Below, piece by piece: positions 325 through 5,608 of a stretch of 64,000 nucleotides of DNA. Position numbers and translations under genes: made by a program. Position 1 is the first letter of the stretch. Every line of letters begins with the position of its first letter. Below the pieces are notes generated by a model that saw nothing but the letters and a program-made list of their open reading frames with translations, did not search any database and was not told the DNA's origin. Origin of the DNA: Candidatus Ruthia endofausta (GTDB taxonomy: Bacteria > Pseudomonadota > Gammaproteobacteria > PS1 > Pseudothioglobaceae); contig NZ_CP054490.1 in the NCBI RefSeq assembly GCF_013342985.1, positions 1,054,001-1,118,000 on the forward strand. The letters run 5' to 3'.

Positions 325-400
325 GGCTACATAGCTCAGTTGGTAGAGCAAGGGACTGAAAATCCCTGTGTCCCTAGTTCAATTCTAGGTGTGGCCACCA
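325..400 (+). tRNA. pheT-tRNA: tRNA-Phe (anticodon GAA)
   Basis: A 76-base cloverleaf can be drawn by hand. The acceptor stem GGCTACA pairs with TGTGGCC with one G-U pair, the D arm is GCTC/GAGC, the anticodon stem AGGGA/TCCCT encloses CTGAAAA with GAA as the anticodon, the T arm carries GTTCAAT, and CCA is encoded. A TATAAT box at 287-292 lies at a suitable distance for its promoter, though no good -35 box is seen. A short hairpin with a T run follows at 412-432. Confidence 0.96.
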
Positions 401-549: not shown

Positions 550-584
550 ATTATATAATAAATATTAGAGTTTTATTATATAAT
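550..584. repeat. Perfect all-A/T inverted repeat
   Basis: The 13-base arm at 550-562 (ATTATATAATAAA) is the exact reverse complement of 572-584, with a 9-base loop. It lies just upstream of the promoter at 589-617. It could be a protein binding site or a DNA structure element. In such AT-rich DNA a chance origin is possible. Confidence 0.5.
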
Positions 585-588
585 AAGT

Positions 589-617
589 TTGCAATATTAT
601 TATTATAATGATATAAT
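589..617 (+). promoter_or_regulatory. Sigma-70-type promoter upstream of a hairpin transcript
   Basis: TTGCAA at 589-594 and a perfect TATAAT at 612-617 are separated by exactly 17 bases. The expected start of transcription is near 624, which falls at the base of the hairpin at 622-675. No protein gene on this strand follows until apbE at 3620, so the promoter appears to serve a non-coding RNA. Confidence 0.6.
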
Positions 618-621
618 ACTC

Positions 622-719
622 GCATGTCGCCACTCTCTCCCCCCCCTTCTTTATAGAGATAATGTGGTGACATGCTCATTTATTTAGAATACGTTATTAA
701 AAATAAAACACATATTTTT
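622..719 (+). ncRNA. Candidate small RNA with a C-rich hairpin loop
   Basis: GCATGTCGCCA at 622-632 pairs with TGGTGACATGC at 665-675 along 11 positions with a single G-U wobble. An inner CTCT/AGAG pairing is possible. The loop carries an uninterrupted run of eight C at 639-646 inside a pyrimidine-rich stretch, which is striking in this AT-rich genome. A weak AAAAATA/TATTTTT hairpin with a T run near 699-720 could end the transcript at about 95 bases. No matching RNA family is recognised. C/U-rich loops in known bacterial small RNAs bind ribosome binding sites, so a regulatory role is possible but is inference. The alternative is the leader of a lost gene. Confidence 0.42.
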
Positions 720-807
720 TATCATTAGGCACACTCACACTCTTTGAAGTTTCTGGTTAATAAGTTGCGTTTTCCAACTAGTGTAGTATTTCAGGGCTAA
801 TCTAGTT

Positions 808-1019
808 TTGAGCAATCTTCCTCATTGTCACAAGTAAGTCAGTATCAAGTTTTGATATTTCGTACAAACCTTTAATCATCTTTAGGGCGGTCTTTCATCT
901 GTGGTTGAGATTTTTTGCAAGCTTAAGCCTACTAAATAACCCTGACACATTGTAATAGCTGCTAGGTTTTACGCAAGCAAAGCCGCATAAAATATCATGC
1001 GCACTAGTAGATGATGCAG
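808..1019 (-). pseudogene. Possible decayed coding remnant, family unknown
   Basis: Two stretches on the minus strand, about 1019-905 and 899-808, read as protein-like peptides in different frames; the second includes IKGLYEISKLDTDLL. Both lack a plausible start and are cut by stops. They may be pieces of one former gene downstream of pyrB. Nothing else is seen in the remaining 720-1054 bases. The family is not recognised and the call is weak. Confidence 0.3.
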
Positions 1020-1054
1020 TGTGGTTTCTAATTAATTAAAGTTAAGTTTATTAC

Positions 1055-2017
1055 TTATAATTTGTTAGCAAGAATTTGCATGACTGCCATACGTACTGCA
1101 ATGCCATTAGTAACTTGTTGTAAGATGATTGATTGATTGCCATCAGCCACGCTTGAGTCAATCTCAACGCCACGATTAATTGGGCCTGGATGCATTACAA
1201 TGGCACCTGGTTTTGCCAATGCTAGGCGTTTTGGTGTGAGTCCAAAATTATCAAAGTATTCTTGTTCGTTGGGGATATCGGCTTCAATCATACGCTCTTT
1301 TTGTAATCTTAATACGATTACCACGTCGCAATTTTTAAGCCCTAGCTCAATGTTACCAAAACGTTTAATTGCTGAATAAGGCTTCAAATCATATTGTAAG
1401 ACTTTTGGAGCAATGAGGCGAATATCAGTTGTGCCTAGCGTTTTAAGTGCTTGAATATCAGAGTGAGCAACCCGTGAATGCGTGATATCACCCACAATAG
1501 CGACTGATAAATCCTCAAATGTTTTTTTGTATTGGCGAATACTGAGCATATCAAGCAGTGCTTGAGTTGGGTGGGCATTAATGCCATCGCCTGCGTTTAG
1601 AATGGAGACATCTTTTAAATATTGTGCCACGTGGTGTGGCAGGCCGTTTTGTTTGTGGCGAATCACAAACATATCAATTTGCATGGCTTTAAGTGTGCGC
1701 ATGGTGTCAAGCAAATCTTCATTTTTTTTGAGTGCTGAGTTGGCAAGATCAACGTTGATGATATTAGCACTACTGCGCATTGCAGCAATTTCAAACGTGT
1801 TACGTGTACGCGTTGATGGCTCAAAAAATAAATTAGCAATAGACATATCATCTAGTGCTTTGGATTTTCTTAAATTGCCAGAAGTATCAATTAGGCTATC
1901 GGCCTTATCGAGAATGTGCGTTAAGTGCTGTTTAGAAAGACCTTCAAGACCTAATAGATGAATTAATTGATCAGAGTCATCTAGTTGGATGTGGTTACTA
2001 ATCAAATCTTTTTTCAT
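1055..2017 (-). CDS. pyrB: Aspartate carbamoyltransferase catalytic subunit
   Basis: The 320-residue protein catalyses the first committed pyrimidine step, carbamoyl phosphate plus aspartate giving carbamoyl aspartate. The carbamoyl phosphate motif FFEPSTRTRNTFE lies near residue 65, the HPTQALLD motif near residue 150, and MHPGPINRGVE near residue 275. Length is normal for the catalytic chain of the class without pyrI. The start overlaps the end of ruvX by 20 bases, so the two are probably translated from one mRNA with mltB upstream. The gene order ruvX-pyrB is common in proteobacteria. No pyrC is found next to it. Confidence 0.96.
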   Translation of the reverse strand: MKKDLISNHIQLDDSDQLIHLLGLEGLSKQHLTHILDKADSLIDTSGNLRKSKALDDMSIANLFFEPSTRTRNTFEIAAMRSSANIINVDLANSALKKNEDLLDTMRTLKAMQIDMFVIRHKQNGLPHHVAQYLKDVSILNAGDGINAHPTQALLDMLSIRQYKKTFEDLSVAIVGDITHSRVAHSDIQALKTLGTTDIRLIAPKVLQYDLKPYSAIKRFGNIELGLKNCDVVIVLRLQKERMIEADIPNEQEYFDNFGLTPKRLALAKPGAIVMHPGPINRGVEIDSSVADGNQSIILQQVTNGIAVRMAVMQILANKL

Positions 2018-4602: not shown

Positions 4603-5608
4603 ATGCCTAACTATAGACCACTTGCTGAAACGTTAAGACTAAAAAGTTTAGATAATTTTTTTGGTCAATCATATCTGTTAAACACTCAGTATCCATTTCG
4701 CCAAGCGATTGATAATCACCGATTGCATTCTATGATTCTATGGAGCCCATTAGGCACAGACAAAACGACTTTAGCAAGGATTATTGTCAGCCAAGTTAAA
4801 GGATATTTTGAACAATTAAATGCCGTGTTAGATGGGGTGAAAGAATTGCGAGCAGTGGTTGAGAATGCTAAGAAATTTCAGAAAATTGGCAAACAACCGC
4901 TACTGCTTGTGGATAAGATTCATCGTTTTAATAAAACCCAGCAAGATGGGTTTTTGCCACATATTGAATCGGATTTATTACTGCTGATTGGGACAACAAT
5001 TAAAAATCTTTCTTTTGAAATTAATAAAGCGTTACTTTCGCATTTAAGCGTTTATATACTAAATGCGCTAAATAACAGGAACTTGAGCAAATATTACAAA
5101 GAGCGTTCAGGCATGAGTCATTAAACTTTGCCAAATTAAAGTGCTTAGAATGCAGACTATTAGTGCAAGTAGTGGTGATGCACGTCGATTGATCAATATT
5201 GTAGAACAAATTTCTTTGTCAGGATTAACCTTGTTAAATGTTGAATCGCTCAATCAGCTATTACAAGACAAAATTAATATCTTTGATAAGGGTGGCGATG
5301 TTTTTTATCAACAATTGTCTGCTTTTCATAAATCAGTACGTGGTTCGTCTCCTGATGGGGCTTTGTATTGGATGGCAAGAATACTGATCCAGATGCGCTA
5401 GAAATTACACTTAATACCTTGGGATGTATTTACGGCGTATAGGCGCTAAAGAAGACAATCGAGCCCGGGGGCTTAAGCTGTGGTGTATTTGTGCAATGCG
5501 CCGACCTATTTTCCCAGTGAATTAGGCGAACAGACTTATTATCAGCCTAGTAATCAAGGTTTAGAGGTTAAAATTGGTGAAAAATTGAAACAATTAAGAG
5601 GTTTGTAA
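4603..5608 (+). pseudogene. rarA: Decayed rarA (mgsA) replication-associated AAA+ ATPase
   Basis: The first 173 codons resemble RarA, opening with MPNYRPLAETLRLKSLDNFF and keeping the GQ..L segment. The Walker A region reads SPLGTDKTTL instead of GPPGTGKTTL, and the Walker B region reads LLVDKIHRFNK with Lys replacing the catalytic Glu/Asp. After a stop at 5124 the frame resumes at about 5141 (SSGDARRLINIVEQI) and breaks again after 5401. The last piece, QTYYQPSNQGLEVKIG, ends at 5608 and overlaps the crcB start by one base. The gene has lost frame and ATPase residues, so it is non-functional. RarA acts at stalled replication forks. Confidence 0.9.

Follow-up and report, generated by a model that had tools for sequence, protein, structure and literature searches.

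A conserved hairpin RNA of SUP05-type bacteria and a few phage contigs, with predicted antisense targets in sox genes

Between a tRNA gene and a decayed protein gene, a stretch of 64,000 nucleotides from Candidatus Ruthia endofausta (hereafter the window) carries a promoter-like sequence directed straight into a hairpin, which raises the question whether an RNA is made there and what such an RNA would do. A sequence-only reading of this locus had proposed a small RNA with a C/U-rich loop. This proposal turned out to be largely right, in that the RNA is conserved in relatives; the copy in the window, however, looks eroded. The features of the locus are as follows:

325..397, + strand: tRNA gene (Rfam tRNA, 70.4 bits), the anticodon region of which reads Phe (GAA)
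572..585, + strand: AT-rich element adjoining the −35 box, found as TTATATAATAA in most relatives (the left arm, 549-562, is not)
589..617, + strand: sigma70-type promoter TTGCAA-17-TATAAT with an extended −10 TG (window scan, relatives' alignment)
622..633, + strand: 5′ strand of the outer stem P1 (covariance model, compensatory changes in the family)
634..663, + strand: core, TCTCT + C8 TTCTTTAT + AGAGATAAT (alignment of copies, fold)
664..675, + strand: 3′ strand of P1 (covariance model, compensatory changes, fold)
781..1058, − strand: UPF0149 (ygfB-like) pseudogene (tblastn pieces; stops and deletions)

The promoter is present as first described, with TTGCAA at 589-594, TATAAT at 612-617, a 17-nt spacer and the extended −10 TG at 609-610, and it holds equally that no protein gene follows on the + strand before 3620. 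The hairpin at 622-675 is real as well, with a stem slightly longer than the 11 bp claimed: P1 comprises 12 bp (622-633 with 664-675, one G-U), and within it an inner stem TCTCT/AGAGA (634-638/655-659) closes a loop of 16 nt, in which the C8 run occupies 639-646. Folding of the RNA from 622 to 676 yields −23.9 kcal/mol (z −7.9; 0 of 200 shuffles as good), the most significant of the folds tested. The perfect AT inverted repeat noticed upstream exists (549-562/572-585) but is incidental; as an operator it was rejected because its left arm is not conserved in relatives, and its right arm, 572-585, is possibly a promoter upstream element. Taken by itself, the promoter match does not exceed the chance expectation for so AT-rich a sequence (13 promoter-like sites found, 13.9 expected in shuffles), so that the relatives had to decide; since promoter and stem are both conserved there, they stand above chance. 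The UPF0149 gene is intact in several relatives (185 aa; Pfam UPF0149 1.9e-30 for the gene of G004), and its decayed counterpart in the window adjoins the aspartate carbamoyltransferase gene. A second conserved stretch at about 801-974 was considered as another RNA and rejected, being part of this pseudogene.

An initial DNA search revealed that many genomes of the window's family have conserved the site 3′ of the tRNA gene, the tRNA being the left neighbor of the RNA in most relatives. We refer to this family as SUP05/Thioglobaceae type because the named records bearing the core are Thioglobus, Ruthturnera, and Bathymodiolus-symbiont genomes. A covariance model matches the window at 623-674 (44.4 bits, E 3e-9) and detects the RNA in 38 of the 83 genomes of the family, spread over 9 of its 11 genera, with one copy per genome except for G032, which has two. 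Under strict filters, 369 genomes spread over the class gave only three covariance-model matches, all within the window's family; beyond this family, the RNA was not found among the gammaproteobacteria sampled. Rfam has no match over the hairpin, either in the window (gathering threshold) or in 15 relatives (E up to 5), and the 42-nt core, searched against collections of named phages and plasmids, returned nothing relevant. As far as searched, the RNA thus appears confined to SUP05-type sulfur oxidisers and a few phage contigs. G098 holds more intergenic stretches with CTCCCYCCAAGA...TATTCTCTCCTCAAGA (L197 about 520-600 and L198 about 500-580, both on the + strand), which are possible paralogues.

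Loss of both stem and promoter from the relatives had been named as the outcome that would speak against a small RNA; both are retained. Read from the alignment, TATAAT lies about 5-8 nt 5′ of the hairpin in 34 of 35 bacterial loci, the −35 box in relatives being mostly TTGACA or TTGCAA and the −10 box TGATATAAT. The compensatory changes that had been suggested as a check of the stem are found on both sides of 10 of the 11 P1 pairs among 34 distinct sequences (0 of 500 shuffles as high), where 98.4% of outer-stem cells pair; in slid controls the signal collapses. The secondary structure expected of a trans-acting antisense sRNA is thus conserved, as evidenced by P1 covariation.

In its conserved form, the element is a hairpin of ~58 nt at the predicted 5′ end of the transcript, and in the aligned copies the sigma70-type promoter lies directly 5′ of this hairpin with its core CUCUCCCCCAAGAAUUAUUCUCUCCUCAAGAGAUAAGG. 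P1 (about 11 bp, covarying) encloses an unpaired junction, J1/2 (CUCUCCCCCAAGAA), and an inner hairpin, P2 (UUAUUCUCU-CCUCA-AGAGAUAA), in which UUAU[U]CUCU pairs with AGAG AUAA around the loop CCUCA. The C/U-rich core is almost invariant among relatives; in G025, the upper inner stem differs yet pairs (CAUCU/AGAUG). The 5′ strand of P2 together with the loop forms the most conserved segment of the RNA and is antisense, over 10-16 nt, to the ribosome-binding site of soxA. A bulged U within P2, odd for a pure stem, lies inside this soxA-complementary stretch.

Scanning with the complement of the loop led to ribosome-binding sites, above all that of soxA. The soxA site (TTGAGGAGAGATTA/AATAATG) is strikingly conserved across genera and so, where readable, is that of soxX (AAAGAGGAGAGAAA); both (L135-L181) are unusually conserved relative to the variable sequence just upstream. 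Conserved strong ribosome-binding sites may mimic target conservation. In an unbiased whole-genome scan with the complement of the P2-plus-loop 16-mer, carried out in the 29 genomes having both RNA and soxA, the soxA site stands alone at the top of the non-self matches in 17 and shares the top place in 8; in G007, G021, G025, and G030, other sites match better than soxA. In the complete genome G031, with genes taken from simple ORF calls, an exact GAGGAGAG precedes the start of only 2 of 1389 called genes, soxX and soxA, which reside in one cluster, separated by 1.2 kb. When duplexes with the consensus 16-mer are ranked, soxA comes first, soxX second, and third a glycine/asparagine-rich secreted protein, which matched no family and presumably resembles sulfur-globule proteins. 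Shuffled 16-mers never put soxA first, shuffles of the flanks only did so in 33%, and the 16S anti-Shine-Dalgarno sequence as a query ranks soxA 159 and soxX 187. The genome's own P2 plus loop again ranks soxA first; with the whole core as query, soxA takes second place for the consensus and tenth for the genome's own sequence. Other genomes have GAGGAGAG-N2-7-ATG 5′ of the gene for a flavoprotein with a weak sulfide:quinone-reductase match, and likewise 5′ of genes for a rhodanese-domain protein, a DsrE-like protein, and a SoxH-related hydrolase. J1/2 was rejected as the target-binding part, having no coherent mRNA targets. Complementarity to specific translation-initiation regions (soxA, soxX) thus exceeds background, although the target segment was picked after seeing the matches and the search is therefore partly post hoc. 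With these candidates, the early suggestion that a C/U-rich loop binds purine-rich ribosome-binding sites gains support.

RNA and soxA also tend to change together. Neither was found in searches of 29 genomes of genus g2 and of G019 (g9), the absence of soxA being checked with the SoxA family model in seven of the g2 genomes and G019. G001 and G009 show an altered RNA core and an altered soxA ribosome-binding site that no longer matches; the predicted duplex amounts to about −1 kcal/mol in these two as against −12.6 to −24.3 in 29 others. Such co-change represents few independent events, and exceptions exist in both directions (RNA without soxA in G034 and G095, soxA without RNA in G002 and G008).

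On balance, with chances that we put only slightly above even, the RNA would be a lineage-specific trans-acting antisense sRNA that keeps sox and a few further respiratory genes from being translated; its targets and its expression we infer from sequence. By comparison of the relatives, the sigma70-type promoter places the hairpin at the predicted 5′ end of a transcript. The CCUCA loop would make the first contact with UGAGG in the Shine-Dalgarno sequence of the target, whereupon the inner stem would open and its 5′ strand would zip along the ribosome-binding site. The resulting duplex of 10-16 bp, in which CUCUCCUC of the RNA is predicted to pair with GAGGAGAG of the soxA and soxX leaders, would prevent ribosome entry. 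Foremost among the predicted targets are soxA and soxX (SoxXA cytochrome, thiosulfate oxidation), joined by a few other sulfur and respiratory genes, and the RNA probably regulates sulfur use by SUP05-type bacteria.

The element, with an identical core of 38 nt, is also present on four viral contigs; the copies on L066 and L068 appear to be one and the same. The outer stems of L066 and L067 are unlike those of the bacterial copies in sequence, yet still pair. L066 has matches to a T4-type tail-sheath stabiliser and to a tail fiber, L067 to a tail fiber, and where tested the element-bearing contigs appear T4-like. On L067, a second, different hairpin with CUCUCCUCAAG and CUCC motifs (4709-4775, − strand) lies just 5′ of the RNA element. 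Three of seven viral contigs sharing CTCTCCCCCAAGAATTA (L112-L114) lack the structure and were taken as chance matches. That SUP05 bacteria are the hosts we infer from the shared core only. Through this identical core, T4-like phages could retune sulfur oxidation in infected cells. We tentatively suggest an RNA common to SUP05 bacteria and T4-like phages that controls translation of sulfur-oxidation genes, with which phages could retune host energy metabolism instead of, or beside, a metabolic gene; we consider this possible rather than probable.

The neighborhood of the RNA offers a different explanation. In genera g3, g6, g8, and g10, an ORF of ~82 aa for a small secreted protein starts about 30-45 nt after the hairpin, which itself lies at the predicted 5′ end, a position from which stems stabilise mRNAs; the hairpin might accordingly be a cis-acting leader of this gene, either protein-bound, riboswitch-like, or a 5′ stabiliser. 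We regard this as unlikely. In g4 genomes, the ORF is replaced by an intrinsic terminator right after the hairpin, no such gene is seen in g1, the genus of the window, although G011 of that genus keeps a near-perfect core, the phage copies precede unrelated or fragmentary genes, and a stabiliser would not need an invariant core. Because the promoter is present at 34 of 35 loci, the terminator follows in g4, and the core is kept where neighbors have been lost, the RNA has its own promoter and a separable transcription unit, as expected of a trans-acting antisense sRNA, and judging from these loci it can stand free of neighboring genes. The ~82-aa family (PYGVFNPLAMF...NYGNKGYDFVV; L038-L051) has no Pfam match and is followed 3′ by a convergent gene for a ~130-aa exported protein; both genes are absent from the window. 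Divergent from the RNA lies a gene for a small membrane protein of 46 aa (MMKYDGQE...; L038, L040, L044, L047, L196, and others), the ribosome-binding site of which (ATCTTGAGGAGA) is complementary to the RNA loop in several genomes.

Binding of a host protein to a sequestering or decoy RNA would account for the two C/U-rich motifs (CUCUCCCCC and CUCUCC-UCAAG), for similar motifs in the second hairpin of phage L067, and for a J1/2 that is conserved yet without coherent mRNA targets, but leaves the 10-16 nt of complementarity to soxA unexplained, and we judge it improbable. It is still far harder to envisage a leaderless mini-gene in which an ATG at the start of the hairpin encodes a conserved peptide, MSPLSPKNYSLLKR. 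This frame is open in many copies (e.g., L070 and L075) but is broken in several genera, being shifted in g4 copies (L086, L087), and G025 has no ATG; moreover, the core is invariant at third codon positions and the stem changes in compensating pairs.

The window copy retains promoter and P1, whereas C8UUCUUUAU replaces the targeting loop and the CUCCUCAAG loop is lost. The eight C residues that had drawn attention to this locus are thus a window-specific replacement, the conserved element being CUCUCCCCCAAGAAUUAUUCUCUCCUCAAGAG, and by alignment the core at 634-663 is a degenerate form of CTCTCCCCCAAGAATTATTCTCTCCTCAAGAGATAAGG. The copy is probably impaired, its targeting loop lost while promoter and outer stem persist in a reduced genome. 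That it is a non-functional relic in a reducing genome seems fairly probable, given that the core is replaced by C8 and the targeting loop gone, that the neighboring UPF0149 gene is a pseudogene, and that G002 lacks the promoter and 5′ half and the cores of G001 and G009 are degenerate. On the other hand, promoter and 12-bp stem are intact, the fold is significant (z −7.9), and the C8 loop is still predicted to form a duplex of −16.6 kcal/mol with AAGGGGAGAAAC, the soxX site of this genome, a value close to the 1% background level. For soxA of this genome, the predicted pairing ranges from −10.3 (loop part) to −13.4 kcal/mol (longer core). Either decay or a change of target may lie behind the form of the window copy.

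In oxygen-minimum zones, in plumes, and in symbioses with animals, SUP05 bacteria rank among the major sulfur oxidisers. Because the RNA is specific to the family and its list of targets is short, cultured relatives allow a direct test of whether sox is controlled post-transcriptionally; the copies in phages, in turn, hint at a way in which viruses could influence ocean sulfur cycling through an RNA. No literature on a SUP05 sRNA or a sox-targeting sRNA was found among open-licence papers. Phage genomes encode regulatory sRNAs (review PMC12197685), and phages, including SUP05 phages, carry sulfur auxiliary metabolic genes (PMC8190135, PMC4164917); in the text searched, neither of these two papers mentions small RNAs. 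Like the element described here, these genes are phage-borne functions that may alter host sulfur oxidation; they are, however, protein genes (such as dsrA, dsrC, or soxYZ), whereas what phages and bacteria share here is an RNA, with soxX and soxA as its predicted targets. The alpha-r14 or 'cuckoo' sRNAs of alphaproteobacteria, exemplified by NfeR1, consist of three hairpins, each with an unpaired CCUCCUCCC (PMC10746234). Both kinds of RNA present an ultraconserved unpaired C/U-rich anti-Shine-Dalgarno motif on stems of differing sequence, are preceded by their own sigma70-type promoter, and are predicted to block ribosome-binding sites (PMC10746234). In contrast to the three CCUCCUCCC hairpins of the cuckoo family, the SUP05 RNA forms one two-part hairpin with two different C/U-rich motifs, CUCUCCCCC and CUCUCCUCAA, has no Rfam match, and belongs to a gammaproteobacterial family in which its longer complementarity is to sox sites.
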